NCBI GenBank assembly: GCA_035544215.1
Contig: DATKHY010000003.1
Span: 62,001-126,000, forward strand
DNA: 64,000 nucleotides
Direction of reading: 5' to 3'
From: Candidatus Binatia bacterium
GTDB lineage: Bacteria; Vulcanimicrobiota; Vulcanimicrobiia; Vulcanimicrobiales; Vulcanimicrobiaceae
In this document: piece after piece, positions 830-31,693 of the stretch
Layout of the letters: every line of letters starts with the position of its first letter
Numbering within the stretch: the first letter of the stretch is position 1
Position numbers and translations under genes: made by a program
The notes under the pieces: generated by a model
What the model was told of the DNA's origin: nothing
The model's input: the letters and a program-made list of their open reading frames with translations, nothing else
Database searches by the model: none

Positions 830-1954
830 TTAGTACGCCAGTAAGTGTGCGTCCGAAACTGCTGGCGATGGCTCCTTAAAGGTGCCGTCTGTCTTGAGTA
901 CCAGAAAGCCCTGGTGGCCAGGTTCGCGATTCGGCGGCAGGCCGAGTTTAGCTAATGTTTCCTCGGTGGTCTTATACGTAACACCCAGCTTTAGCATCTG
1001 CCGTGCCTGCTCTGGAGTGGCTATATCACGCCCAATCTCACGAGCCATGCGAACGTGCCTCTCGACCATCTGAACGGTCGTCATCCGCACGCCTTTTTTG
1101 GTGTCATAAAGATTGTCCTCAATGCCGGCGCGCGTGTGTTGGCCGAGGGCGATCATCATCATCGAGATTGGGTGTGTTAAGCGAAACGTTGTTTGATAGG
1201 TGAACACCGAACCGTGCGGCGTCCGGCGTACGAGCTCCATCAGGTCAAACGGATTGGCGCCGAGAAAGCCGCCGCCGCCGGTGCTGAAAAATCCATTCAT
1301 CGGGCCCATGTAGTAGCCTCGCCGAATCATGCGCTCCACTAGTTCGAGGTTGTGGACGTGGCCAAGCGCGAAATACGGCTGGATCCCGTGCTCCACACAG
1401 AGTTTTGTCTCTTCGATGTAGAAGTCCGGCGTACCATCGGCCACCATATTAGCGATCCCATGCATGGCTTCTTCATTGCCCAGGTGCGTTCCGCCGAAGG
1501 AGTCGTCAACTGGGTGCAGCGCGGTTAAATCGTAGAGACCGCTACCGCACAAAACGGTGATCTGATCCGGCTTAGGGTCGATCTGAGTCAGCTTGTGGCG
1601 CTGTTCGTAAGTCCCGAACTTCCCGACTTCGCCCGGCTCTGGCGCGAACGAGATCGATCCGCCGACCTGCAGGATCATTTTCGGCACAGCTTCACGGAGG
1701 CGCCCGATTTGCTCGCCGTATTCCTTGAAGTTCTTCGAGATATGTCCCGTCTTGGGATCGCGCACGTGGATGTGCAATAACGTTGCACCTGCATTATAGC
1801 AATCAACGGCAGCTTGAACTTGTTCATCCCACGTAAGGGGGATGTATCCCGGTGGGCCGTCCTCGGGAAGCCACATTGGCCCGTAAGGAGCCGCCGTGAT
1901 CATCAGAGGTGCCATGTTTTCGGGGAGAAGGGAGTCATCGGTAAAGTACGCCAT
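830..1954 (-). CDS. BKACE family beta-keto acid cleavage enzyme (DUF849)
   Basis: The start at 1954 is chosen because AAGGAG lies ten bases upstream; the frame stays open further upstream but there it overlaps the gene on the other strand. The product is 374 residues. The motif LLHIHVRDPKTG carries the HxHxRD zinc-binding pair of the BKACE barrel, and FALGHVHNLELVERMI near the middle matches the later conserved block. The family condenses a beta-keto acid with acetyl-CoA and releases acetoacetate plus a CoA ester; the type member acts in lysine fermentation. The C-terminus is longer than in short members of about 270-310 residues. Substrate is unknown; the neighbouring flavin reductase does not resolve it. 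Confidence 0.85.
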   Translation of the reverse strand: MAYFTDDSLLPENMAPLMITAAPYGPMWLPEDGPPGYIPLTWDEQVQAAVDCYNAGATLLHIHVRDPKTGHISKNFKEYGEQIGRLREAVPKMILQVGGSISFAPEPGEVGKFGTYEQRHKLTQIDPKPDQITVLCGSGLYDLTALHPVDDSFGGTHLGNEEAMHGIANMVADGTPDFYIEETKLCVEHGIQPYFALGHVHNLELVERMIRRGYYMGPMNGFFSTGGGGFLGANPFDLMELVRRTPHGSVFTYQTTFRLTHPISMMMIALGQHTRAGIEDNLYDTKKGVRMTTVQMVERHVRMAREIGRDIATPEQARQMLKLGVTYKTTEETLAKLGLPPNREPGHQGFLVLKTDGTFKEPSPAVSDAHLLAY

Positions 1955-5162: not shown

Positions 5163-5963
5163 TTACGGGTTTTGCGATACGATGGTGAGCGTCTGCGAGT
5201 TGACGCTATAGTTGCCGGCGGACACGAGATTGTTTGGTAACGCGCAGATCATGCTGTTGTTCGGTCCGTAGATGACGACGAGATTCGGCGGGCCGCACGC
5301 CGTCTGCGTGAGGTGATAGCTGGCGAGGAGTTTCGCGCCGGGACTGCTCGGCGCGACCTGATACGAGGCTACCGCCGCCGCCGTGGCTCCGACCGCGAAC
5401 GCGCCCCAGAACCCGCCGCCCCAGTAGGCGGGCGCGCCGTACCATGCGTAGCCGCCGTTCCAGCCCCATGCTGGATAGCCGCGATACACCGGGTTGGTCA
5501 CGACGGCGCCGTGATAGACCGTGCCGGAGTTGGCGTAGGTGCTCGCGTGATACGTCTGTCCCCAAGCGTTCGTTGCGGTGGTTGAGCCGCTGTACGTGTG
5601 ATTGTACGCGTTGCCGCTGCCATAGTGGCTGTACGACCCATTGGGGCCGCTGCCCGTGCTCCCGTGGTAGTAGTTGCCGTTCGTGTTCGCGCCGCCGGAG
5701 GTCGTGCGGTTATAGTTTCCATTGGACGCGGTCGTCGTGCGGTTGTAACCGTTGCCGGTGTTGTTGACCGTCGTCGAGCGGTTCGTCCCGTACGGCCCCG
5801 TGCTCGAATGGCTGGCGCTTTGCGGCGCGCGTGCCGGCGCGCCCTCGCTGTGCATGTCGAATCCGCCGGCCGGCCGCGAGTAGCCGCCGCGGCCGCCGGC
5901 TGCAGCGCTCAGCGGAACGAAGGCAAGGAGCAGCGCGATGACCGCCGTGCGTTGAACTTTCAT
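5163..5963 (-). CDS. Asn/Thr/Gly/Tyr-rich secreted protein
   Basis: A signal peptide (MKVQRTAVIALLLAFVPLSAAAGG) leads into about 110 residues of low-complexity sequence dominated by Asn, Thr, Gly, Ser and Tyr. A glycine/tryptophan-rich hydrophobic stretch (GYPAWGWNGGYAWYGAPAYW) and a more ordinary C-terminal domain of about 80 residues follow. Such proteins are usually surface-exposed or matrix-like; no enzymatic motif is visible. Its ATG overlaps the upstream stop as ATGA, making it the second gene of the operon. Confidence 0.75.
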   Translation of the reverse strand: MKVQRTAVIALLLAFVPLSAAAGGRGGYSRPAGGFDMHSEGAPARAPQSASHSSTGPYGTNRSTTVNNTGNGYNRTTTASNGNYNRTTSGGANTNGNYYHGSTGSGPNGSYSHYGSGNAYNHTYSGSTTATNAWGQTYHASTYANSGTVYHGAVVTNPVYRGYPAWGWNGGYAWYGAPAYWGGGFWGAFAVGATAAAVASYQVAPSSPGAKLLASYHLTQTACGPPNLVVIYGPNNSMICALPNNLVSAGNYSVNSQTLTIVSQNP

Positions 5964-6418
5964 TTCTGCACCTCGTCGACGACGCCGGTGAGCGTAACGT
6001 ACGTTCCCTTTTTCGTGCGAACGGCGAGCAGTACGCCGCGGGGCGGAAGCTGCGTGGACGAATGGCTCAGCGGCTGGCGGGTCTTGCTCGGATTCAGCCA
6101 AACCGTTCCGGACTGCAGCGAAATATGCGTTTTACGACCGTATTGCAGGAGCGTCGCATCGTAGGGCAGGCACTCGAGGAGCTCGCCGACCTTCGTGCAC
6201 GCCGCGTCGCCCAGAACGATCGTTCCCTGCCCGTCGGCCGACGTGATCGCCATGCTCCCGTTCTTAATGCTGATCCGAACGTTCGTGTAGGTTTTCTGGG
6301 ATCCGTCGCGCTGCACGACGCGAGCGGTTCCCGTGGCGCCGGCTGGGCCAAATGGCGCGGCGACGGCGACCGTCACGGCGAGAGCGGCTAAAGGAACGCG
6401 ACCCAGGAGCGTATTCAT
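5960..6418 (-). CDS. Small secreted protein of unknown function
   Basis: The product is 152 residues with signal peptide MNTLLGRVPLAALAVTVAVA and a mature domain of beta character. Two in-frame ATGs are available. The second (6418) is preferred because the -10 box TACACT at 6433-6428 abuts the first one, and the predicted transcript would begin at about 6420. It is the first gene of the envelope operon down to 2815, and is divergent from the chromate transporter gene across an inverted pair of 16-bp promoter elements. Confidence 0.7.
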   Translation of the reverse strand: MNTLLGRVPLAALAVTVAVAAPFGPAGATGTARVVQRDGSQKTYTNVRISIKNGSMAITSADGQGTIVLGDAACTKVGELLECLPYDATLLQYGRKTHISLQSGTVWLNPSKTRQPLSHSSTQLPPRGVLLAVRTKKGTYVTLTGVVDEVQK

Positions 6419-6427
6419 GGTGTTCAT

Positions 6428-6470
6428 AGTGTACGCCGGGCATCCGTCCCGACAGTATCCCAAAAATGCA
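6428..6470 (-). promoter_or_regulatory. Promoter module copy 1 (16-mer + -10)
   Basis: On the minus strand, TGCATTTTTGGGATAC (6470-6455) is followed after 21 bp by TACACT (6433-6428). It drives the envelope operon 6418 to 2815. The ATG used lies nine bases after the -10 box, so the transcript is predicted to be leaderless. Confidence 0.65.
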
Positions 6471-6475
6471 AGCCC

Positions 6476-6517
6476 TGCCGTTTTGGGATAGAGGGTCGGG
6501 CAGGGAGTTGCTATCAT
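6476..6517 (+). promoter_or_regulatory. Promoter module copy 2 (16-mer + -10)
   Basis: TGCCGTTTTGGGATAG (6476-6491) is followed after 20 bp by TATCAT (6512-6517). The chromate transporter ATG is six bases further on. With copy 1 it forms an inverted repeat whose GGGATA arms face outward toward the two divergent genes. Confidence 0.65.
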
Positions 6518-6523
6518 AGTGCG

Positions 6524-7135
6524 ATGGCGGAGGCGGTAGCGGCCCCGAGACCCAAGGCCGTATCGATGCTCGAACTCTTCGGCGTCTTTCTCCAGATCGG
6601 CGCCACCAGCTTCGGCGGCGGCGTGGTCGCCTATCTGCGCAGCGCGCTGGTTAGGAAGAAGCGCTGGTTCGACGACACGGAGTTTCTCGAGCTCATGTCG
6701 TTGAGCAACACGCTTCCGGGACTCAACGCCACGAACATGGCGATTCTCGCGGGCGATCGCCTCCGCGGCACGCTCGGCGCCGTCGCGGCGATGATCGGAA
6801 TGTGTCTCCCGGCATTGATCCTCATGACCGCCGCGGGCGTCGCGTACGGGATGAACGGGAATCGGCCGATCGTCACGGCGGCCCTCCACGGCGTGGCGGC
6901 CGCGGCCACCGGGCTGATCGCGGCCACGTGGTTTCAGATCGGAAAGAAGACCGTCAAAGGATTTTACGACGCGTTCTTCATTCTGGCCGCGGTACTGGGC
7001 ATCAACCACTTCAAGCTATCGGTGCCGGTCGTGCTGCTCTCGGTCGGCGCGCTCGCAATCTTCGCGTATCGCCCGGTCAAGAAAACCGATCGCCCGCACG
7101 AGGACTCACACGCGTGGATCAGATCCCTGCAATAG
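6524..7135 (+). CDS. Chromate transporter, N-terminal-type CHR half
   Basis: This 203-residue membrane protein is a short-chain CHR family subunit. It shows the FLQIGATSFGGGVVAYLR motif (family GxxxFGG) near residues 23-40 and LSNTLPGLNATNMAIL (family S..PGPxxxN). It has about six membrane segments. CHR proteins export chromate or related anions; many bacteria encode two half-size proteins that work as a pair, and the second half follows here in an overlapping frame. The ATG lies six bases after a -10 box with no Shine-Dalgarno. Confidence 0.88.
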   Translation: MAEAVAAPRPKAVSMLELFGVFLQIGATSFGGGVVAYLRSALVRKKRWFDDTEFLELMSLSNTLPGLNATNMAILAGDRLRGTLGAVAAMIGMCLPALILMTAAGVAYGMNGNRPIVTAALHGVAAAATGLIAATWFQIGKKTVKGFYDAFFILAAVLGINHFKLSVPVVLLSVGALAIFAYRPVKKTDRPHEDSHAWIRSLQ

Positions 7136-7635
7136 CGCGCGTCTTCGGCTACCTTTCGTTGCTGACGATCGGCGGCGGCATGGCGGCGTTTCCGGAGATG
7201 AAGGTCCTCGTGGTCGGCGTGCACCGCTGGCTGACGGATGCGCAGCTGATCCATATTTATAGCGTCGGGCAGCTGTCGCCCGGGCCGAACATGATGATGG
7301 TGGCGACGATCGGCGAACGGGTCGCCGGGATCCCGGGTGCGCTGGTCGCTGCGCTCGCGTTCTTCGTGCCGACCGGAATTTTGACGTTCGTCGTCGGTCG
7401 GGTGTGGAACCGGATCGCGGCGTGGCCGTGGCGCGCCTCGATCCAGCGCGGGCTGGCGCCGGTCGCGATCGGCCTGGCAGTAGCGGGCCTGATCACGTTC
7501 GGCAAAGGCGCCGTGACCGGATGGATCACGCTGCTCGTCGGGCTAGCCGTCTTCTACGCGTCGCTGCGCACGCGCGTCAATCCGGCACTGCTCATCCTCG
7601 GGGGAGCGGCGGTCGGCGCGATCGCGCTCCGGTAG
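7114..7635 (+). CDS. Chromate transporter, C-terminal-type CHR half
   Basis: The frame opens at GTG 7114 inside the end of the preceding CHR gene (22-base overlap), with GAGG about ten bases upstream. The 173-residue protein carries TIGGGMAAFPEM (family GGG..FP.M) and LSPGPNMMMVATIG (family SPGPN). This is the second half of a heterodimeric short-chain chromate transporter. The frame extends further 5' inside the first gene, but conserved sequence starts here. Confidence 0.88.
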   Translation: MDQIPAIARVFGYLSLLTIGGGMAAFPEMKVLVVGVHRWLTDAQLIHIYSVGQLSPGPNMMMVATIGERVAGIPGALVAALAFFVPTGILTFVVGRVWNRIAAWPWRASIQRGLAPVAIGLAVAGLITFGKGAVTGWITLLVGLAVFYASLRTRVNPALLILGGAAVGAIALR

Positions 7636-9310: not shown

Positions 9311-10150
9311 CTAGTTTCCGTCGTCGCCGTAGATCAGCGCCGTCTTTGTGGTTCCCGTCGTGATCCATTCAGCAAGCGGTAACTGAATGTCTTTGAAGAA
9401 CTGGTCGGCGACCTTGTCGGCCTCCTTGCCTTTTTCGTCGTCGACGGGGTGATACGACCAGCCGAACTCCGCGATCAGCGGATCGAACTTATCCGGAACG
9501 GGCCGCGCCCAGACCGCGAGCGTCGCGGTGGCCGTTGTGTGATGGCCGAAGAAGAAGTTGCCGAGGTTGGCCTGGATCTCGAAGACCTTCGCGTCGTTGA
9601 CGATCTTCATCGTCTGATCGAAGTTGATGTTCAGCGTCTTGAGGTGCGGGAAAGCCTCCGCCAATTTGTGGAGAGGAATCTCGACGTCGAGCTGCGGCGA
9701 CTCGAGGATGCAGTTGTTAGAGTAGATGCTCGCGATCGATCCAGGCTCGTCGCCCCGTAAGATCTCCTCTTTGAATTTTTTCTTCTCTTGCGTCGGGAAG
9801 GTCGACGTGCTGTCGAATCCCTCCACCTTCTTGCGATCGCCGTGACGCGACTTGAACGTCACCTCCCAGCTCTCGTCGGGCCAGAGCGCCTGGCGCAGTT
9901 GACGGATGCGAAAGATCAGGCGATTCTTGCGCAGCGTTTGGTCCGACGTGTCGTAGAACTGAACGATCCGAAGCTGCGCGTCGATCGGATCGAACGGCTC
10001 GTAGCGGACGTGCAGCTTCGCCGCGATCTCCTCGAGCAATTTGTTGAATGCAAGCAGCGACTGCCGCGTCGGGAAGCGCTCCGCCTTCAACAACAGTTTG
10101 AACTCGCGATGCGTGATGCGGGACACGACCGCGGTTTCCGAGCCGGCCAT
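9311..10150 (-). CDS. CYTH-like domain protein
   Basis: The 279-residue protein begins with a REFKLLLKAERF segment and continues with RIVQFYDTSDQTLRKNRLIF and RIRQ, close to the charged tunnel strands of CYTH (triphosphate tunnel) proteins. Lys- and Arg-rich strands (WEVTFKSRHGDRKKV) follow. CYTH members hydrolyse triphosphates or polyphosphate-like substrates, but the exact ExExK motif is degenerate here (REFK), so activity is uncertain. AAGGAG lies ten bases upstream of the ATG. It is driven by promoter module copy 3. Confidence 0.7.
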   Translation of the reverse strand: MAGSETAVVSRITHREFKLLLKAERFPTRQSLLAFNKLLEEIAAKLHVRYEPFDPIDAQLRIVQFYDTSDQTLRKNRLIFRIRQLRQALWPDESWEVTFKSRHGDRKKVEGFDSTSTFPTQEKKKFKEEILRGDEPGSIASIYSNNCILESPQLDVEIPLHKLAEAFPHLKTLNINFDQTMKIVNDAKVFEIQANLGNFFFGHHTTATATLAVWARPVPDKFDPLIAEFGWSYHPVDDEKGKEADKVADQFFKDIQLPLAEWITTGTTKTALIYGDDGN

Positions 10151-10172: not shown

Positions 10173-10215
10173 AGTGTACCGCGGCGGCGCTAGAGCCTTC
10201 TATCCCAAAAATGCA
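10173..10215 (-). promoter_or_regulatory. Promoter module copy 3 (16-mer + -10)
   Basis: On the minus strand, TGCATTTTTGGGATAG (10215-10200) is followed after 21 bp by TACACT (10178-10173). The CYTH start is 22 bases further downstream with an AAGGAG ribosome site between. It is divergent from the FGE promoter, whose -35 starts four bases beyond the element. Confidence 0.65.
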
Positions 10216-11798: not shown

Positions 11799-11840
11799 TG
11801 CAATTCCAGGATAGACCGGTCTGTGGCGGGGTGGTACGCT
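11799..11840 (+). promoter_or_regulatory. Promoter module copy 4 (16-mer + -10)
   Basis: TGCAATTCCAGGATAG (11799-11814) is followed after 20 bp by TACGCT (11835-11840). The TRIC gene ATG is ten bases later with no ribosome site, predicting a leaderless transcript. It starts five bases after the stop codon of the preceding gene. Confidence 0.55.
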
Positions 11841-11850
11841 GATCGGGCTC

Positions 11851-12618
11851 ATGACGCCGCTGATCCTCTCGAAGTTCGGCTTTAGCACCCTTACGCTGGT
11901 CGACTACATCTCGCTGATCGCCGCCACGACCAACGCCTTCAACGGCGCCCTTCTCGCGCGCCGCCCAGACCACTACAAACACTTCACCGTCGCCGGAATT
12001 ATCATCTTGGCCTACGCGGGCGGCATCGGCGGCGGCATCGTGCGCGACGTCCTCGTTAATAGGATCCCGTCGCCGCTGATCAACCCGTGGTATTTGATCT
12101 TGTGCACGATCGCCGCCGTCGTGGCGCTCGCGATCGACTATTACAGCGAACAGCGATTTAAGGATGGCCTCTTTCAGTTCATGACGGCGTTCTCGCTGCC
12201 GTGGTACGCGATCGTCGGTGCGCAAGCGGCGCTTTCCGTCCATCTCGGGTACGCGGCTGCCGTGCTCATCGGCATCATCGCGACGACCGCGGGGCGCTGG
12301 ATCATCGACGTCGCCTGCAACGTAATTCCCAAGCAGCTGGTTCGCGGCGAGTTCTTCGTGGGAGCGGCGGCCTTGACCGGCATCGCTTACGTCGTTTGCA
12401 ACGTCGCGCTCGGCTGGTCCGTAGCTACGTCGACGTTAATTGCGTTCGTGGTCGGTTTCGGCTTCCGCCTGACCTCGCAGGCGTTGGGCTGGGAGGAATG
12501 GGAACCGTGGGAGCCTGCTCCGCTCACCGAAGAGGAGAAGGAGCGCAAAAGGCTTGGCGAGGGGCTGCGCGCGGAGCTCGCGGCGGGCGGCTCTGGTTCA
12601 GATGGAGATGCAAAATGA
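11851..12618 (+). CDS. TRIC/UPF0126 family cation channel-like protein
   Basis: The 255-residue protein has seven predicted membrane helices. The signature AYAGGIGGGIVRDVLVNRIP matches the glycine-rich UPF0126 motif (GGxxRDxLLxxxP) of prokaryotic TRIC channels, and a second, weaker half-repeat follows at about residues 130-200. Prokaryotic TRIC proteins form trimeric potassium-selective channels. The tail (residues about 215-255) is charged, with EEEKERKRLGEGL. Its stop overlaps the next ATG as ATGA, linking it to the arylsulfatase. Confidence 0.85.
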   Translation: MTPLILSKFGFSTLTLVDYISLIAATTNAFNGALLARRPDHYKHFTVAGIIILAYAGGIGGGIVRDVLVNRIPSPLINPWYLILCTIAAVVALAIDYYSEQRFKDGLFQFMTAFSLPWYAIVGAQAALSVHLGYAAAVLIGIIATTAGRWIIDVACNVIPKQLVRGEFFVGAAALTGIAYVVCNVALGWSVATSTLIAFVVGFGFRLTSQALGWEEWEPWEPAPLTEEEKERKRLGEGLRAELAAGGSGSDGDAK

Positions 12619-14993
12619 CGAACTCGAACGGCAGATCGAAGCAGGTTCAGCGCGAGATCTTACCGATTCCCGACCAAGCTTACGCCGGATTTATCGCGTA
12701 CGATGCCAAGGATCCCGACTCCAAGTTTCCGCCGATCGAGCCGGTGCGTCCGCCGGAAGCGGCGCCGAACGTCCTGATCGTCCTGATCGACGACGTCGGC
12801 TTCGGCGCGTCGAGCACGTTCGGGGGCCCGTGCCAATCGCCGACGGCGGAGCGGCTCGCGAAAAATGGCCTACGCTACACGCGCTTCCACACGACGGCGC
12901 TGTGCTCGCCGACGCGTGCGGCGCTGTTGGCTGGACGAAACCATCACACCGTCGGCATGGGCGGCATTACGGAGATCGCAACGTCGGCGCCCGGTTACAG
13001 TTCGTTGCGGCCGAACTCGATGGCGCCGCTGCCGGAGATCCTTCGGCTTAATGGATACTCGACGGCGCAGTTTGGCAAGTGCCACGAGGTGCCGGTATGG
13101 GAAGCCAGCCCGGTTGGGCCGTTCGACCGCTGGCCGACCGGCTCGGGGTTCGAGTATTTCTACGGCTTCGTCGCGGGAGAAACCAACCAGTGGTATCCCG
13201 CGATTCATGAAGGCACCAAGCTCGTGGAGCCTCCCAAGACGCCCGAAGAGGGCTATCATTTCATGGAGGATATGACCGACCGCGCGATCGCGTGGGTGCG
13301 CCAGCAGCGGCTGCTCGCCGGCGACAAACCGTTCTTCATGTACTTCGCACCCGGCGCCACGCACGCGCCGCATCACGTGCCCAAGGAGTGGGCGGATAAA
13401 TATAAGGGCAAGTTCGACCAAGGCTGGGACAAGCTGCGCGAAGAGACGTTCGCGCGACAGAAGAAGCTCGGGGTGATTCCGCAGGATTGCGACCTGACGA
13501 AGCGGCCCGACGCGATTCCCGCTTGGGACGCGCAGACCCCGGAGTTCCAGCGCGTGCTGGCCCGCGAGATGGAGGTTTACGCGGGTTTCTTCGAGTTCGC
13601 CGACCACCACATCGGCCGGCTGATCGACGCCCTCGATCAAATCAAGGCGCTCGATAACACGCTGATCTACTACATCATCGGCGATAACGGAGCGTCGGCG
13701 GAGGGGACGCCTCAGGGCACCTACAACGAAGTGATTCCGTTCAACGGCATGAACGCGCTCGAGACGGTGGATTTTCTCACCGCGCGCATGGACAAGCTCG
13801 GAGGCCCCGATTCGTACAACCACTACGCGGTCGGCTGGGCGCACGCGATGGATACTCCCTACCAGTGGACGAAGCAAGTCGCCTCGCATTGGGGCGGCAC
13901 GCGCAACGGCACGATCGTGCACTGGCCCAAAGGGATCAAAGCCAAGGGGCAGATCCGCCCGCAGTTCCATCACGTGATCGACGTCGCACCGACAATTCTG
14001 GAGATCGCGCAGCTGCCCGAGCCGTACATGGTGAACAGCGTCGGGCAGGTGCCGATGCAGGGCGTCAGCATGGCGTACAGCTTCGAGGATCCCAAGGCGG
14101 CCGAGCGCCGCGAAACCCAATACTTCGAGATGTTCGGCAATCGCGGCATCTACCACAAAGGTTGGACCGCGGTGACGCGCCACAGAACGCCGTGGCTCTT
14201 GACCGAGGCAGCTCCGCCATTTGACGACGATGTTTGGGAGCTGTACGACACGAATAAGGACTGGTCGCAGGCCCACGACCTTTCAAAACAGATGCCCGAT
14301 AAGCTGCACGAACTTCAGCGTCTGTGGCTGATCGAGGCGACGCGCAACAACGTTCTGCCGCTGGACGATCGTACCGCTGAACGGTTTAACTCGGATATCG
14401 CGGGGCGGCCGCTGCTCATTCGTGGGACCTCTCAAGTACTAGCCAACGGCATGGGCGGCCTCAACGAGAACGGCATCGTGAACGTGAAAAACAAGAGCCA
14501 TTCCGTTACGGCGCAGATCGTCGTGCCGGACGGGAAGCCCGCAAACGGCGTCATCCTTTCTCAGGGAGGAATCGGCGGCGGCTGGATGTTCTACGTAAAG
14601 GACGGAACGCTCACATACCATTATAATTTCGTCGGACTCCGCCATTTCGTCATCACGGCGACGCAACCGCTGAATGCGGGCCCGCACCAAGTCAGAATGG
14701 AGTTCGCCTACGACGGAGGCGGACTTGCAAAAGGCGGCGGCGTGACGCTCCTCATCGACGGAAAGGCCGTTGGTCAGGGACGGGTCGAGCAAACGGTTCC
14801 GATGGTCTTCTCCGCGGACGAGACCAGCGACGTGGGCGTGAAGCACGGATCGCCGATGACGCTCGAGATGCCGCCAGAGCAGAGCGAATTCAACGGCACG
14901 GTTCAGGTCGTCGTCATCGAGACGACAGGTGAAAGTCTCGACCACCTGCTCTCGCGAGAAGAAGTGCTCAGCATGATCGTCGCGCGCCAGTAA
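12615..14993 (+). CDS. Arylsulfatase, Cys-type, with C-terminal beta domain
   Basis: The 792-residue protein is a formylglycine sulfatase without a visible signal peptide. NVLIVLIDDVGFG supplies the metal-binding Asp pair (59-60), and ALCSPTRAALLAGR places the modified Cys at residue 97 in canonical CxPxR context. IIGDNGASAEG carries the later Asp-Asn metal ligands. Residues about 610-790 form an extra Gly-rich beta domain, as in large mycobacterial-type arylsulfatases. It overlaps the TRIC gene by four bases, and an FGE is encoded 1.4 kb upstream on the same strand, so maturation can occur in the cytoplasm. The sulfate-ester substrate is unknown. Confidence 0.9.
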   Translation: MTNSNGRSKQVQREILPIPDQAYAGFIAYDAKDPDSKFPPIEPVRPPEAAPNVLIVLIDDVGFGASSTFGGPCQSPTAERLAKNGLRYTRFHTTALCSPTRAALLAGRNHHTVGMGGITEIATSAPGYSSLRPNSMAPLPEILRLNGYSTAQFGKCHEVPVWEASPVGPFDRWPTGSGFEYFYGFVAGETNQWYPAIHEGTKLVEPPKTPEEGYHFMEDMTDRAIAWVRQQRLLAGDKPFFMYFAPGATHAPHHVPKEWADKYKGKFDQGWDKLREETFARQKKLGVIPQDCDLTKRPDAIPAWDAQTPEFQRVLAREMEVYAGFFEFADHHIGRLIDALDQIKALDNTLIYYIIGDNGASAEGTPQGTYNEVIPFNGMNALETVDFLTARMDKLGGPDSYNHYAVGWAHAMDTPYQWTKQVASHWGGTRNGTIVHWPKGIKAKGQIRPQFHHVIDVAPTILEIAQLPEPYMVNSVGQVPMQGVSMAYSFEDPKAAERRETQYFEMFGNRGIYHKGWTAVTRHRTPWLLTEAAPPFDDDVWELYDTNKDWSQAHDLSKQMPDKLHELQRLWLIEATRNNVLPLDDRTAERFNSDIAGRPLLIRGTSQVLANGMGGLNENGIVNVKNKSHSVTAQIVVPDGKPANGVILSQGGIGGGWMFYVKDGTLTYHYNFVGLRHFVITATQPLNAGPHQVRMEFAYDGGGLAKGGGVTLLIDGKAVGQGRVEQTVPMVFSADETSDVGVKHGSPMTLEMPPEQSEFNGTVQVVVIETTGESLDHLLSREEVLSMIVARQ

Positions 14994-20049: not shown

Positions 20050-21564
20050 TTAGCCGTGTGCTGCTTTCGCCTGCTCCAGTACGGCATCCAAGTTGAACGA
20101 TGCGGGTTTTTGCCGCGGCGGGAACTTGGCGAAGTCCTCGATCTGCCCGGCAATAACTGCCTGCATCTCGTACATCTGCGGAACGTGGTTTACGGCCCAA
20201 TCCCAGTAAACATTCGAGTTCCAGTCGGCGCGCTCGAAGGGATCCCGCCGCAAGTTCATGATGTGCGGCAGTCGCAGCTTCACAAAGGGCTCGGCCCACG
20301 CCTCCGTCGACACCGCGCGCTGGAGGGCCAGCTGGAACTTATAGTCGCCGACCCGCACTGCGATGACATCGCCATCGTCGCTGAAGTATACGATGGCGTT
20401 TCTCGGACTATCCTTGGTCTGCCCCGAGAAGTACGGGATCATGTTGTAACCATCGAGATGGACATTGAACTTCTTGCCGCCGACGGTGCAGCCGTCGAGC
20501 AGTTGCTTGGTGACGTCAGGATTGCCCGCGGCCGCCAACAGCGTCGGGAACATGTCGATGTGCGAGACGATCCCATTGTACACCGACCCGGGCTTGATGG
20601 TGCCCGGCCACCGGATGAAGCTCGGTACGCGCCAGCCGCCCTCCCAGTTCGTATCCTTCATCATCCGGAACGGGGTGTTCGCGCCGTCGGGCCAGGTGTC
20701 GTTCTGTGGACCGTTGTCGGTCGAGTACATCACGATCGTGTTGTCGGCGATGCCCAGCTCGTCGAGCTTGTCGAGCATCATACCGATCTGCTCGTCATGC
20801 ACGACCATGCGATCGCTGTACGGGTCCTGGCCACTCTTGCCGAGATTCTTTGCCGCGACGTGCGTCCGGAAATGCATGGCGGTCGAGTTGTACCAGCAGA
20901 AGAAGGGTTGGTTCGCCTTCGCTTGTTTTTCAATCCATGCTAGAGCCCTTGCGGTGATCTCCTCGTCGATCGTTTCCATGCGCTTCTTCGTGAGAGGTCC
21001 GGTGTCGACGACCGTCTGTTTTCCCACACGTCCCCAGCGCGGATCGACGGTCGGGTCGTCTTTGTCGGTCGCCTTGCAATCCAGCACGCCCCGCGGCCCG
21101 AACATGGCCTTGAACTTCGGATCCTTCGGATAGTCGGGGAGTTCGGGTTCTTCCTCGGCATTGAGGTGGTACAGGTTGCCGAAGAACTCGTCGAAGCCGT
21201 GTACCGTCGGCAGAAACTCGTTGCGATCGCCCAGATGGTTCTTGCCGAACTGGCCCGTGGCGTAGCCGAGTGGCTTGAGCATCTCGGCGATCGTCGGGTC
21301 TTCCGGCTGTAGGCCAACCGTGGCGCCGGGCATGCCAACCTTCGTGAGGCCGGTGCGGATCGGGTTTTGGCCGGCGATGAAGCAGGCCCGGCCTGCCGTG
21401 CAGCTCTGCTGCGAGTAGTAATCGGTGAAGAGGCCGCCCTCGTTGGCGACGCGGTCGATGTTGGGGGTCCGGTATCCCATCATGCCGTTGCTAAATTTGC
21501 TGATGTTCCAGATGCCGATGTCGTCGCCCCAGAGTATCAGGATATTGGGCTTTTTTGCAGGCAT
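20050..21564 (-). CDS. Sulfatase with CTAGR modification motif
   Basis: The 504-residue protein lacks a signal peptide. ILILWGDDIGIWN gives the metal-binding Asp pair (14-15), and SQQSCTAGRACFIAGQ places the predicted formylglycine at Cys55 with Ala instead of Pro at +2 (CxAxR). MYSTDNGPQ carries further metal ligands. Such CxAxR sulfatases are known relatives of CxPxR enzymes. The FGE at 10257 could modify it if it accepts Ala at +2. GGGAG lies about a dozen bases upstream of the ATG, and promoter module copy 5 drives it. Confidence 0.88.
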   Translation of the reverse strand: MPAKKPNILILWGDDIGIWNISKFSNGMMGYRTPNIDRVANEGGLFTDYYSQQSCTAGRACFIAGQNPIRTGLTKVGMPGATVGLQPEDPTIAEMLKPLGYATGQFGKNHLGDRNEFLPTVHGFDEFFGNLYHLNAEEEPELPDYPKDPKFKAMFGPRGVLDCKATDKDDPTVDPRWGRVGKQTVVDTGPLTKKRMETIDEEITARALAWIEKQAKANQPFFCWYNSTAMHFRTHVAAKNLGKSGQDPYSDRMVVHDEQIGMMLDKLDELGIADNTIVMYSTDNGPQNDTWPDGANTPFRMMKDTNWEGGWRVPSFIRWPGTIKPGSVYNGIVSHIDMFPTLLAAAGNPDVTKQLLDGCTVGGKKFNVHLDGYNMIPYFSGQTKDSPRNAIVYFSDDGDVIAVRVGDYKFQLALQRAVSTEAWAEPFVKLRLPHIMNLRRDPFERADWNSNVYWDWAVNHVPQMYEMQAVIAGQIEDFAKFPPRQKPASFNLDAVLEQAKAAHG

Positions 21565-21598: not shown

Positions 21599-21640
21599 AG
21601 TGTAGCGGAAAAAGCCCCTTGCCACTATCCTAAAAGTGCA
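21599..21640 (-). promoter_or_regulatory. Promoter module copy 5 (16-mer + -10)
   Basis: On the minus strand, TGCACTTTTAGGATAG (21640-21625) is followed after 20 bp by TACACT (21604-21599). The sulfatase start lies 34 bases further on with a ribosome site between. Confidence 0.65.
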
Positions 21641-23769: not shown

Positions 23770-23846
23770 GCGCCGTAGGACGCGCCGGATGACGCGATGG
23801 TTGCAAATCCGTTTTGCGGCCCGGCGCGTTGAAGGGGCAGTGCGAA

Positions 23847-24407
23847 GTGAGGTTTACAGAGAAAGCTGGCGCGGTGGAAGACGCGAGCCGGCTGATAGAG
23901 CGCGTGCGCGCCCGTGATGCCGACGCCTTCGAGGCGCTCTACGACGAGTACTATCGGCTCGTCTACGGGCTTGCTCTGCGCGTCCTTGCCGATGCGAGCG
24001 CGGCGGAGGACGTCACTCAGGCCGTGTTCCTGAAGATCTGGGACAGCCCGGCGCTCTTCCGAGGCGGGAACTTCGGTGCCTGGATCGCACGCGTCACACG
24101 CAATCGCGCACTCGACGTCGTCCGCTCACGCAGGGTTCGAGACGAGGGGCAGTTCCCCGACTCGCTGCCGCTGGACGACAATCCCGAAGACACTGCGATA
24201 GCCCATCTGGACGGCGCTCGCGTGCGCGATGCCCTGGCGCAGCTGCCGCCCGAGCAACGTGAACCGATCGAGCTCGGCTTCTTCGGCGGTGTCACGCATC
24301 AGGAGATCGCGCGTCGGATCGGGCTGCCGCTGGGAACCGTGAAGACGCGAATTCGCACCGGACTGCGGCGACTGCGTAACGTCTTGGAAGGAGCGATCAC
24401 GGTATGA
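23847..24407 (+). CDS. ECF-type RNA polymerase sigma factor
   Basis: The 186-residue protein has sigma region 2 (DAFEALYDEYYRLVYGLALR, then AEDVTQAVFLKIW) and region 4 (LPPEQREPIELGFFGGVTHQ, then IGLPLGTVKTRIRTGLRRLR). GTG 23847 is preferred because AAGGGG lies about ten bases upstream; TTG codons at 23814 and 23829 are possible. The zinc anti-sigma gene follows in ATGA overlap. Its target promoter is not recognisable. Confidence 0.88.
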   Translation: MRFTEKAGAVEDASRLIERVRARDADAFEALYDEYYRLVYGLALRVLADASAAEDVTQAVFLKIWDSPALFRGGNFGAWIARVTRNRALDVVRSRRVRDEGQFPDSLPLDDNPEDTAIAHLDGARVRDALAQLPPEQREPIELGFFGGVTHQEIARRIGLPLGTVKTRIRTGLRRLRNVLEGAITV

Positions 24408-25123
24408 GGTCGCACGACGAGATGCTCGACGCGGTGGCCGTCTACGCGCTCGGCGCGCTTCCGCCGCGCGAGGCCTCCGAGGTGATGGCGCATTTGCGCG
24501 ATTGCGCGGAGTGTCGCGCCGAATACCGGTTGTTGCAGCCGGCAGTGACGGCCGTCGCGTACTCCGCCGAGACGTGTGCGGACGCGTCATCCGGCGCCGA
24601 CGTCGCAAGCCCGCTGCTCAAGGCGCGCATTATGAAACAGGTGCGCGGCGAGGTGCGGCGTCCTCGGCCGATCCGTCCGTGGCCCGCGTACGCCGCGGCG
24701 GCGGCATGCCTTGCGCTCGCAATCGTCGCCGGCCTCTTCGATCTCTCGCTAAGCGATCGGCTCAAACAAGAGCGCGCACAGGTCGTCGAGCAAAACCAGA
24801 CGATCGCCGATTTCATGGCGCCCGATTCTCAGCGGCATCCGTTCGCGCACGGCGAGGTGCTGATGCACGGAGCGCGGCTCTACATCGCCATGCACGACAT
24901 GCCGATGCCGCCGAGCGGCAAGGTCTACCAGGCCTGGACGCTGACGAAGGGCGCGAAGACCGTCGCGCCCTCGAAGACGTTCATGCCCGCGACGACGGGC
25001 ATGACGGTCGTGCGGCTCCCCGAGTCGGCCACGACGTTGGCCGCCGTCGCGGTCAGCATCGAGCCCGAGGGCGGCTCGCAACAGCCTACAAGCAAGCCGA
25101 TCGCCATGATCAGCCTCCAGTAG
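24404..25123 (+). CDS. Anti-sigma factor, zinc-binding, RskA-like C-terminus
   Basis: The 239-residue protein starts with an anti-sigma helix bundle holding the HLRDCAEC zinc motif (HxxxCxxC) at about residues 28-36. One membrane helix (AYAAAAACLALAIVAGLFDL) follows near residues 97-116, then an extracytoplasmic domain. That domain includes HGEVLMHGARLYIAMHDMPM and AVSIEPEGGSQQPTSKP, matching RskA. It should hold the ECF sigma factor at the membrane until released by regulated proteolysis. Its ATG overlaps the sigma stop by four bases. Confidence 0.88.
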   Translation: MRSHDEMLDAVAVYALGALPPREASEVMAHLRDCAECRAEYRLLQPAVTAVAYSAETCADASSGADVASPLLKARIMKQVRGEVRRPRPIRPWPAYAAAAACLALAIVAGLFDLSLSDRLKQERAQVVEQNQTIADFMAPDSQRHPFAHGEVLMHGARLYIAMHDMPMPPSGKVYQAWTLTKGAKTVAPSKTFMPATTGMTVVRLPESATTLAAVAVSIEPEGGSQQPTSKPIAMISLQ

Positions 25124-27486: not shown

Positions 27487-28398
27487 CTAGTGCACGAGCG
27501 TTTGCGAGGGAGTCTCTCCGAACATCATTCGGTAATCCGTTGTGAAGTGGCCCATGTGCCAGAAGCCCCAGTCGGTCGCCACGTCGATGATCCGGATCGC
27601 GTCGCGGTGCGCGCGCTGGAGCGTTCGGTGGACGCCGTTGAGACGAATGCGCTTGAGATAATCCATGGGGCTATAGCCGGTCACCGCCTCGAAAGCATTG
27701 ATCAGCGACCGCGAGCGCATGCCGGAGACGTGGCTCAAGTCGAGCAGCGTCAGCGTTGCGTCCACGTGATCACGCATGTAGGCCTCGCACCGGCGTACCG
27801 CGGTGAGGCGCCGGTTGAGGCATTTGGACGACTCGACGATGCGTTCGTCGCCGCGATCCATCGCGGCGGCCAGCAACGGAATCAGCGTGCCGCTGATGCT
27901 GCGGTGCCGAAGCGGTCGCGACATCGAAAAGTTGTTATGCATCAGCGTTCGCAGGCGGCTCGCGAGGACGGGGTCTTGCGACAATCTCGCCCTCTGCAGG
28001 TCATCGAGCAAGATGAGCGCATCCGGGGCGCGCGAGAACTCCCTCGCCAGCGAGTGCCGATCGATGCTGATCGAGTAGAACGAGCCGGCGCCTGACGTCG
28101 TGAGCTCGACGAAGGCGGAGCTCGAAAAGATGCTGCTCGCGTCCATCTTTGTTCCGAACCAGCGAGCGCGGGTAAGTGGATCGGCGACGATGCCGATCAC
28201 CGATTTTTCCTTTGCTACGTGCGCCTCACCCTTGAAGGCGACGTTGAACTTACGCAGAGCAAGCCGCAACGGGCTCGCGTCGACGAAGCCGTAGTGCACT
28301 TCGAAGTTTCCGGGCTCGAGCTGTGCCCACGCTACCGTTTCGGGCGCATAGGTACCCTCGGCCGACCGCTCCAGAAGATGAGAAGACTCCAATTTCAT
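27487..28398 (-). CDS. AraC family transcriptional regulator
   Basis: The 303-residue protein has a C-terminal AraC double helix-turn-helix: TLLDLSHVSGMRSRSLINAF (first) and GFWHMGHFTTDYRMMFGETP (second, with the usual G/HFxxxYxxxFGxxP pattern). The N-terminal about 190 residues form a cupin-like sensing domain of the type found in AraC proteins that also control oxygenase or stress genes. The ligand is unknown. It is monocistronic; possible targets nearby are unproven. Confidence 0.85.
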   Translation of the reverse strand: MKLESSHLLERSAEGTYAPETVAWAQLEPGNFEVHYGFVDASPLRLALRKFNVAFKGEAHVAKEKSVIGIVADPLTRARWFGTKMDASSIFSSSAFVELTTSGAGSFYSISIDRHSLAREFSRAPDALILLDDLQRARLSQDPVLASRLRTLMHNNFSMSRPLRHRSISGTLIPLLAAAMDRGDERIVESSKCLNRRLTAVRRCEAYMRDHVDATLTLLDLSHVSGMRSRSLINAFEAVTGYSPMDYLKRIRLNGVHRTLQRAHRDAIRIIDVATDWGFWHMGHFTTDYRMMFGETPSQTLVH

Positions 28399-28456: not shown

Positions 28457-28948
28457 TTAGGAAGGTCCGGCCGACAGCTCCCGCAGGAGCTCGCCGACCA
28501 AGCTCTCTCTCGCGGCTTCAGCGCATTCCGCAGCTTCCCTTTCGAGCTCGGTGAAAATCTTCTTCATGTCGTTTGCCACGCTGGGGGTCTCGTAGCCGGC
28601 GGCGCGCCATCGCGCGCGCAAGTCCTCGTCGAGGCGTAAGCACAGCGCCGGATCGGCCTCGTTCGCTTCTCGAAAGCGCTCCTCGATCCGCTCGCGCCGG
28701 GCCTCGGCCAGCTCCTGTTCGAACGCCGCCGTATCCGCCCAGATCGCTTTACCATTTCGAAAGATTTGGATTGCGCCCAGACCTCTGCGCCTCAGCAGGT
28801 CGTGTTCCCAGTCGCATTCGTCGACCGATCGCGCGAGCGCCGCACGAATCGTAAACTCCATGATGCGGTTCAGGAGTGCGGCGTAGCTGACGTCGTCGGC
28901 GAGGCGGTGCGACTCGCCGATGCGCGCGGCATAGAGCGGTTTAGTCAC
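28457..28948 (-). CDS. Hypothetical cytoplasmic protein, charged helical
   Basis: The 163-residue protein starts at GTG 28948, ten bases after a TACAAT -10 box and without a ribosome site. It is rich in Glu, Arg and Ala, with a long amphipathic helix (FEQELAEARRERIEERFREA) suggesting coiled-coil or dimer formation. No family was recognised. Promoter module copy 6 drives it, divergent from the outer-membrane barrel at 29065. Confidence 0.6.
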   Translation of the reverse strand: MTKPLYAARIGESHRLADDVSYAALLNRIMEFTIRAALARSVDECDWEHDLLRRRGLGAIQIFRNGKAIWADTAAFEQELAEARRERIEERFREANEADPALCLRLDEDLRARWRAAGYETPSVANDMKKIFTELEREAAECAEAARESLVGELLRELSAGPS

Positions 28949-28958
28949 ACCAATCCAT

Positions 28959-29000
28959 ATTGTATCTGGAGTACCGCGGGAAGCTTATCCCAGAATCGCA
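28959..29000 (-). promoter_or_regulatory. Promoter module copy 6 (16-mer + -10)
   Basis: On the minus strand, TGCGATTCTGGGATAA (29000-28985) is followed after 20 bp by TACAAT (28964-28959). The GTG of the minus gene lies ten bases later. It forms an inverted pair with copy 7. Confidence 0.65.
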
Positions 29001-29013
29001 AGAACGGGACTTT

Positions 29014-29056
29014 TGCGCCTTTGGGATAGACCGCCCCAGCCGCCCACCGGTACAAT
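29014..29056 (+). promoter_or_regulatory. Promoter module copy 7 (16-mer + -10)
   Basis: TGCGCCTTTGGGATAG (29014-29029) is followed after 21 bp by TACAAT (29051-29056). The barrel gene ATG follows after eight bases, predicting a leaderless mRNA. Confidence 0.65.
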
Positions 29057-29064
29057 TGAGCCCG

Positions 29065-29967
29065 ATGAAGCGCTTCTTCGCCGTAGCAGCACTGCTCGTG
29101 TGCGCTGGCTTAACTGCCACCGCGCGCGCCGGAGCCCAAGAAACGCCGGCTCCCGCAACGCCGGCGCCCGCCGCTAGTCCTACACTAATGGATCGGGAGT
29201 ACGATGGGCGGCTGCACGTCATGGCCGCTCCCTACGTGTGGGCGCCGACGGTCGGCGGAGACTTCCAGTTCACGATTCCGGGGTTGCCGCGGCGCCCGGG
29301 CGGCACGCGGCAGACCAGCGTGCAGGTGGCGCCCGTTAACTACCTGCCAAAACTCAACTCCGCTGCGATGTTTGCCTTCGACGCGCGTCAAGGCAACTTC
29401 GATATTTTCGGGGACTACATTTACGTCAACGCGACGGTGAGCGCGTCGGCCTCCGCCGTGCTGAGCGGCCGGTTCGGCCGGCTGCAAGTCCCCGTCAGCC
29501 TCAGCACGAACGCCCACTTGCGCGAATCGATCTGGGAGGCGGCGGCGGGCTACACGGTCGCAAGGGGGCACGACGCGGATTTAAGCGTCTTTGCCGGCCT
29601 GCGCGAGTTTCCGCTGAGCTTGGGGTTCGACTATACGGCTACTATTGGGCGGCGGCGCCCGTTTATGCGCTCGGGTTCGGTCCAAACGGCGGACATCGCG
29701 CAGGACGTCGTCTTCGGGTTGCGCGGGAAGGCATACTTCGGCGACGGCCATTGGTTCGTGCCGTACTATGGCGACGCGGGCACGGGGATAGGCATGCTGA
29801 GCAACACGACGTGGCAGGCGTATTCCGGCGCCGGCTACGCCTTCAACCACGGGCAAAGTATCATCGTGCTGTACCGCGACCTGAGCTATAACTCATTCGC
29901 GCCGATCTCGCATGTTCAAAAGCTCTCGATGTACGGCCCACTCCTGGGTTATACGTTCAACCTATAG
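29065..29967 (+). CDS. Outer-membrane beta-barrel protein
   Basis: The 300-residue protein has a signal peptide (MKRFFAVAALLVCAGLTATA), a Pro/Ala linker and then about ten to twelve amphipathic strands. It ends in a hydrophobic last strand (YGPLLGYTFNL). The pattern fits a small monomeric barrel or adhesin-like outer-membrane protein; no substrate motif is visible. The next gene starts 12 bases later, so the two barrels are one transcription unit. Confidence 0.75.
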   Translation: MKRFFAVAALLVCAGLTATARAGAQETPAPATPAPAASPTLMDREYDGRLHVMAAPYVWAPTVGGDFQFTIPGLPRRPGGTRQTSVQVAPVNYLPKLNSAAMFAFDARQGNFDIFGDYIYVNATVSASASAVLSGRFGRLQVPVSLSTNAHLRESIWEAAAGYTVARGHDADLSVFAGLREFPLSLGFDYTATIGRRRPFMRSGSVQTADIAQDVVFGLRGKAYFGDGHWFVPYYGDAGTGIGMLSNTTWQAYSGAGYAFNHGQSIIVLYRDLSYNSFAPISHVQKLSMYGPLLGYTFNL

Positions 29968-30948: not shown

Positions 30949-31629
30949 TTAGCCGCCTAGCGAGCGCTGGCCGACGACGCGACCGACCGGCGGGGTCGTA
31001 TCCTTCCCGTTCCCCCAGGTGCCGTTGAAGCTGTTGTTGTCGTCGTTGAACCAGAACGCGAACCAGCCGCTGCCGTTGGGTCCGGTCCAGGTCGCTCGGA
31101 CTTTGTCCTTGGTCCGGAACTTGCCGTTCATTAGGATCGCGCCGGCGTGGCAAACGACCGACGGACCCGACTGCGTGCAGCGCATCTTCCCGATGAAGCC
31201 GCCCGGGCCGCCCGCGCCGGTCACGTTCCAGGTTCCGGCCGCGGTAATCGGCGACGGCGGCAGGACCTTGTTCGCGGTGAACGACCCGTTTGCTGCGCGT
31301 CCGTTGTAGCCCCAGGTTCCGTTGAAGCTGTGGCCGTTCGCGCTGACGTAGACCGTCAGCCAGCCCGCGCCGCCGGGCCCGTGCCATTTGCCGTTGATCT
31401 GGGTGTCGTTGACAAACGTGCCGGTGAAGCCGTTGCCGTTGCTGGCGTTGTTGCCGACGACGCCGTTGCCCGACTGGGTCAGCGTGATCGTCGAGGTGGT
31501 CGTGCCGTTGAGGCCGCTCTGCTGGACCGACCAGGTCCCCGTGACGTTCGGCGGGCTCGCGATCGCGGCGGTGATGGCCGCCGCCATGAGGGCGACGCCG
31601 CAGGCGATTGAAATAGCAAGACGTTTCAC
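30949..31629 (-). CDS. Secreted protein with tandem duplicated beta domain
   Basis: GTG 31629 follows a GGGAGG ribosome site. The 226-residue protein has signal peptide KRLAISIACGVALMAAAITA and two homologous units of about 90 residues. Each runs from GTW(S/N)V through NGK(W/F) to a SFNGTWG repeat end (GHSFNGTWGYNG and NNSFNGTWGNGK). It resembles repeat-type secreted proteins of unknown role. Promoter module copy 8 drives it. Confidence 0.7.
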   Translation of the reverse strand: MKRLAISIACGVALMAAAITAAIASPPNVTGTWSVQQSGLNGTTTSTITLTQSGNGVVGNNASNGNGFTGTFVNDTQINGKWHGPGGAGWLTVYVSANGHSFNGTWGYNGRAANGSFTANKVLPPSPITAAGTWNVTGAGGPGGFIGKMRCTQSGPSVVCHAGAILMNGKFRTKDKVRATWTGPNGSGWFAFWFNDDNNSFNGTWGNGKDTTPPVGRVVGQRSLGG

Positions 31630-31651: not shown

Positions 31652-31693
31652 AGTGTAGGATGAGCGCGGCTTGCCTGCTATCCCGAAAGTGCA
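31652..31693 (-). promoter_or_regulatory. Promoter module copy 8 (16-mer + -10)
   Basis: On the minus strand, TGCACTTTCGGGATAG (31693-31678) is followed after 20 bp by TACACT (31657-31652). The gene's GTG lies 22 bases further with GGGAGG between. Confidence 0.65.

Follow-up and report, generated by a model that had tools for sequence, protein, structure and literature searches.

The stretch of DNA analysed here (64,000 nucleotides, referred to as the window) contains a pair of inverted 16-mer copies between two divergent genes at 6.4 kb, and the question raised by this locus is whether the two mirrored words form a single site common to both genes or two sites, each acting on its own gene. 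The first-pass annotation had described an inverted pair with a 15-bp centre, and it is present in exactly that form: the arm TATCCCAAAA occupies positions 6456-6465, the arm TTTTGGGATA positions 6481-6490, and the centre positions 6466-6480. With up to one mismatch, the 10-mer arm occurs nine times in the window, where 0.80 occurrences would be expected; nine was not reached in any of 100 shuffles. The full repeat, TGCAYTTTTGGGATAG, was matched at 21 places in the genome when up to three mismatches were allowed (nine for the reversed control); the five matches with 0-1 mismatch were all located at 58-94 kb of C3, the contig of the window. Two exact 10-mer matches on contig C7 had, by eye, no -10 in place. 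An RNA element at the repeat was ruled out, as no Rfam match over threshold was obtained for the whole window and the box precedes the -10.

In an alignment of seven copies, the pattern TGC(A/G)N-TTTT-GGGATAG precedes a TAnnnT hexamer. Each copy consists of a 15-bp box, TGC(A/G)-N6-GGATA, and a TAnnnT -10 hexamer 21-22 nt further on, and the base counts after the box revealed no conserved -35 hexamer. By score, the window contains eight such promoters (Table 1), the one at 11799 (+) being weaker; box and -10 hexamer are separated by 21 or 22 nt, and a start codon is located 6 to 34 nt beyond the hexamer. The interval 6428-6517 is bounded exactly by the two -10 hexamers, with the left box directed to the gene of the secreted 152-aa protein (for which no Pfam match over the cut-off was found) and the right box to the ChrA-type transporter gene, whose second half is matched within 6922-7635. 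The copies had been proposed to be outward-facing regulatory sites for both genes, and this was borne out; the pairing also recurs in relatives. A second region, at 28.98 kb, had been described as having the same arrangement. This second pair was confirmed, with its boxes at 28986 and 29014 and one mismatch in each 10-mer arm, and it agrees in orientation but not in spacing, as the boxes are 13 bp apart in comparison to 5 bp at 6.4 kb. When eight boxes were placed at random, two divergent pairs within 30 bp did not appear in any of 20000 trials.

Table 1. Predicted promoters of the window, with the genes at the 6.4-kb pair and the regulator operon
Feature	Position	Strand	Details
Box TGCATTTTTGGGATA	6456-6470	-	Leftward promoter, putative activator box
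-10 TACACT	6428-6433	-	22 nt from left box
152-aa protein	5960-6418	-	N-terminus resembles a signal peptide by eye; 9 nt from -10 to start codon
Box TGCCGTTTTGGGATA	6476-6490	+	Rightward promoter, putative activator box
-10 TATCAT	6512-6517	+	21 nt from right box
Two-gene chromate transporter (ChrA type), first half	6524-7135	+	PF02417, E 5e-38 and 1.6e-32
Box TGCATTTTTGGGATA	10201-10215	-	-10 TACACT 10173-10178; 279-aa gene 9311-10150
Weaker box TGCAATTCCAGGATA	11799-11813	+	-10 TACGCT 11835-11840; glycine-transporter-family gene (PF03458), start 11851 or 11878
Box TGCACTTTTAGGATA	21626-21640	-	-10 TACACT 21599-21604; sulfatase gene 20050-21564 (PF00884)
AraC-type regulator	27487-28398	-	PF12833, E 2.1e-18; proposed activator of all boxes
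163-aa conserved protein	28457-28948	-	First gene of predicted regulator operon
Box TGCGATTCTGGGATA	28986-29000	-	-10 TACAAT 28959-28964; regulator's own operon
Box TGCGCCTTTGGGATA	29014-29028	+	-10 TACAAT 29051-29056; gene 29065-29967 for 300-aa protein, assigned to the envelope by eye from its signal-peptide-like start
Box TGCACTTTCGGGATA	31679-31693	-	-10 TACACT 31652-31657; 226-aa protein gene 30949-31629, secreted by eye

In the 3.23-Mb genome, the strict pattern GGGATA-N21-22-TAYAMT was found five times, always in the window, and its reversed form not once. When up to two mismatches were allowed in box and -10 and the gaps of 21 and 22 nt were taken together, nine matches were obtained, eight of them within 36 kb (C3:58,048-93,693); the ninth, C7:1185667, is probably due to chance. 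We also noticed a further box with TAGACT approximately 4 kb to the left of the window (C3:58048-58090, minus strand), downstream of which, by eye, a GTG could open an MCGVFG frame that we take to resemble class II glutamine amidotransferases.

Across the 18 genomes of the genus, the search with two mismatches gave 47 matches for the gap of 21 nt (control 2) and 39 for the gap of 22 nt (control 7), with three places shared by the two lists. The strict pattern TGCA-N6-GGATA-N20-23-TANANT was present in 10 of the 18 genomes (control 0), in comparison to three of 42 others (control likewise in 3/42). Of the 17 other genomes of the genus, 13 encode a relative of the AraC-type regulator that aligns with it over most of its length at 36-84% identity; in G007 (the labels are ours) only its DNA-binding part was matched, and none was found in G006, G013, and G017. 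The two-mismatch matches in these four genomes numbered one in G007, four in G006, none in G013, and one in G017. The presence of box matches in G006, where no regulator was found, speaks against the activator reading, with the genome being 65% complete and one of its four matches sitting in both gap lists. In G011, six of the seven matches lie within 12 kb (1,779,811-1,791,735), around the regulator at 1,780,480, on a contig (C1, 2.79 Mb) that makes up nearly all of this 2.8 Mb genome of five contigs. Among named records, the closest relatives of the regulator belong to Candidatus Eremiobacterota.

A scan with the box only, in which the -10 was not used, covered 26 sets of fetched sequence and gave 64 boxes in 559,587 bases, with weights trained on the seven window copies and with some of the contigs picked by the box itself. 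TAnnnT was present at 21 or 22 nt in 58 of these 64, and its peak at the other distances from 5 to 44 nt was four (at 16 nt). The reversed sequence gave no boxes, and two matches at a lower threshold on box and -10. On contigs picked by the regulator protein alone, 33 of the 37 boxes had the -10, and 13 of the 15 contigs carried a box. The regulator-bearing contigs without a box were G008:C47 (40 kb scanned) and G009:C104 (7 kb). The regulator on G008:C47 is the most distant relative (36-37%), and the four genus-wide matches of G008 all have two mismatches and lie on other contigs. On G009:C44 (L132), we noticed a high-scoring box, TGCACTTTTGGGATA (1140-1154, plus strand), divergent to a sulfatase promoter and lacking a -10 where one would normally stand. 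As for orthologous promoters, the left box of the 6.4-kb pair is also found before the orthologue of the 152-aa protein in G005, G001, G003, and G010, the box before the glycine-transporter-family gene is kept in G001, and a box precedes the orthologous regulator operon in congeners. A start codon was found automatically for 50 of the 58 promoters, and in 24 of the 50 it lies 5-11 nt after the -10, so that nearly leaderless mRNAs are predicted. In the window, start codons 6-10 nt after the -10 were noticed at 6412-6433, 6512-6526, 28946-28964, and 29051-29067.

In total, 15 divergent pairs were compared, one with a box lacking the -10 and four with a weak box; their box-to-box distances are 5, 13, 13, 12, 15, 35, 23, 21, 36, 25, 24, 5, 6, 15, and 23 bp. 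Paired copies had been expected across related genomes; the pairing indeed recurs, but the spacing is not constant, and the range of 5-36 bp rules out a fixed spacing of inverted pairs. The pair of the secreted-protein and ChrA genes recurs in G005 and G001 (boxes 5 and 6 bp apart), and the pair of the regulator operon and the 300-aa envelope protein is present in the window and six congeners (12-36 bp), with the regulator-side box weak in four genomes. The regulator operon has the gene of a 304-aa protein as its partner in G011 and a sulfatase gene in G015, and in both G002 and G011 the partner of ChrA is the 226-aa secreted-protein gene; for the ChrA box in G004, no partner box was found at the thresholds used.

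The first-pass annotation had suggested that one dimer or one polymerase pair could serve both genes at 6.4 kb. A regulator dimer bridging the inverted copies, and serving the two genes as a unit, would be in agreement with the recurrence of divergent pairs (15) and with the activity of XylS as a dimer, which is described in PMC4225500, and a flexible linker could tolerate the variable spacing. However, the distances show no constant value, the partners are swapped from one genome to another and many boxes have no partner, and we regard such bridging as unlikely. Variable spacing and reshuffled partners favour independent promoters over one rigid shared dimer, and as every box goes with a -10 of its own, we read the 6.4-kb pair as two promoters; the box is kept even when the partner changes, and the earlier suggestion was not upheld. 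This suggests that a single XylS-type half-site can be sufficient, also in a back-to-back arrangement, in which case two promoters would fit in about 100 bp without a common site.

The same boxes could be read in other ways. A repressor operator blocking the -35 region would explain why the box covers the -35 position, as judged by its distance from the -10, but no conserved -35 hexamer is left there to block and a geometry like that of XylS goes with activation, which makes an operator very improbable. Somewhat less probable still is a reading of the 16-mer as a -35 element for an alternative sigma factor, such as the ECF factor with its gene at 23814-24407. This gene and that of an RskA-like anti-sigma factor do lie inside the cluster and a -10 accompanies almost all boxes, whereas the 21-22 nt gap to a TAnnnT -10 argues against this reading, and in the contigs that were fetched, the gene of the ECF factor was present only in the closest relative, G005, while the boxes persist in other congeners. 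The ECF sigma factor itself was ruled out as the reader of the motif, as its gene adjoins the regulator only in G005 among these contigs. Finally, a short motif in a 3.2-Mb genome yields stray matches, as C7:1185667 may illustrate, and loose patterns match controls (9 vs 21); still, chance or a dispersed repeat family can hardly account for nine copies in the window in place of 0.80, for controls that give few matches once the -10 is required and none by box score, and for boxes kept at orthologous promoters.

Seven AraC-type (PF12833) proteins were found in the genome, and only the one encoded at 27487-28398, in a predicted operon behind the box at 28986, contains the RSLxNxFE helix of XylS. 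Its predicted model (pLDDT 86.8) comprises a cupin-like N-terminal domain and a C-terminal double helix-turn-helix. The fold was matched by 3mn2_A (Z 15.8, 105 residues, rmsd 1.7) and CuxR 5nla (Z 13.2, 167 residues, rmsd 3.1), both VIA matches, by domains of BgaR and ExsA (Z 10.5), and also by the MarA-DNA structure 1bl0 and the SoxS complex 7w5w. Of the matches limited to the N-terminal domain, the longest was CuxR, a protein linked to c-di-GMP, and this does not suffice for proposing an inducer. The 163-aa protein of the same operon, kept in congeners and with a predicted pLDDT of 87.3, is a candidate co-regulator; it gave no Pfam match over the cut-off, no NCBIfam match, and no confident PDB match by sequence or Foldseek.

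Taken together, we consider it likely (with a probability of roughly 85%) that the mirrored words are docking sites for a locally encoded activator of the AraC/XylS type, each activating its own gene within a local autoregulated regulon. The boxes, the -10 hexamers, their spacing and conservation, and the clustering around the regulator were read from the sequence and the fold of the regulator was predicted; binding, activation and autoregulation by the protein from 27487-28398 are what we infer from them. Each 15-bp copy would bind one subunit of this activator, and the box, which ends 21-22 bp upstream of the TAnnnT -10, would stand in for the -35 element. Since there is no conserved -35 hexamer and the box takes its place, RNA polymerase would be recruited by class II activation. 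The 6.4-kb pair would then be two back-to-back promoters, activated separately by the same activator, and the secreted protein and ChrA would respond together. The activator would also turn on the operon that encodes it, together with the sulfatase, transporter and envelope genes nearby.

The genes of the putative regulon were counted downstream of 64 sites with a box and -10 score of at least 20, the downstream gene being the longest open frame after the site, so that some assignments are approximate. Sulfatases were the most frequent (12 sites), followed by the 300-aa envelope protein (10), the 226-aa secreted protein (9), the 163-aa leader of the regulator operon (9), ChrA (5), the 304-aa protein (4), and the small secreted protein (4, the window's own copy being extra), with two sites each for the glycine-transporter family, the 279-aa protein, and the bile-acid-symporter family. 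The remaining five, including the small secreted protein of the window, fell in no shared group. No significant similarity was found between the 300-aa and 304-aa families. A formylglycine-generating-enzyme-like gene is located in the same cluster as the sulfatases, and the combination of sulfatases, a likely maturase, transporters and envelope proteins suggests a role in the handling or use of sulfated organic compounds. The usual sulfatase form is CSPTR; this form is present in the 930-aa sulfatase (12201-14993), and CTAGR was noticed in the 504-aa sulfatase (20050-21564, minus strand). The cluster also includes the genes of the ECF sigma factor and the RskA-like anti-sigma factor (23814-25123, plus strand).

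Most likely, these genes form a compact regulon for sulfatase and envelope functions in uncultured bacteria of the Eremiobacterota. Among the papers listed on Eremiobacterota and AraC proteins, sulfatases or leaderless transcripts, and on AraC proteins with sulfatases and organosulfates or sulfate esters, no title or opening of an abstract describes such a regulon. An uncultured phylum gains a predicted regulator, a DNA word, a promoter geometry, and target genes. A more detailed picture, in which a single-box regulon without a -35 element, about half of it nearly leaderless, is run by an XylS-like activator gated by the 163-aa operon partner and co-switches sulfatase, transporter and envelope genes, is tentative and, taken as a whole, rather doubtful.

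Known systems offer several comparisons. Monomeric AraC activators of the MarA/SoxS/Rob type perform class II activation from one asymmetric site; their consensus, however, differs from the box found here, and the regulator described here has an N-terminal cupin domain. In XylS, DNA is contacted by R242, N246, E249, and R296. Our regulator shares with XylS the double helix-turn-helix with the RSLxNxFE recognition helix, of which it keeps R, N, and E, with 31% identity over 102 aa of the DNA-binding domain only. No similarity to the benzoate-binding N-terminal domain of XylS was found, the sole significant BLASTP alignment covering residues 200-301.

The promoter on which XylS acts, Pm of the Pseudomonas putida TOL plasmid pWW0, resembles the promoters described here in both the TGCA-N6-GGNTA box and the 21-nt distance to the -10: in Pm, TGCAAAAAATGGCTA is followed by 21 nt and then by TAGGCT, presumably the -10. 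Among our 58 promoters, the first three bases of the box are T in 57, G in 56, and C in 58, and the second half-box has GG in 58, A in 57, T in 58, and A in 55. The fourth base (A 25, G 24, C 7, T 2) is looser than in the XylS/BenR consensus. The position overlapping the -35 is also shared, with a gap of 21 or 22 nt in 58 of the 64 boxes and of 21 nt in Pm. Two points speak against an XylS-type reading, namely the histidine in place of R296 and the single boxes instead of the tandem pair of XylS. A second direct box upstream (score above 8, offsets 15-60) was found in none of the 58 promoters, and Pm-like tandem boxes are thus ruled out. XylS governs benzoate catabolism, whereas the target genes here are different. 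According to PMC4225500 and PMC5481539, the XylS box has the sequence TGCAN6GGNTA, and its promoter-proximal copy extends over two bases of the Pm -35. In PMC1360089, BenR acts at Pben of the benzoate operon of Pseudomonas fluorescens through two tandem boxes 5 bp apart. Judged by its sequence, the regulator belongs to the AraC/XylS activator class with a well conserved promoter code, and the kind of system is not new.
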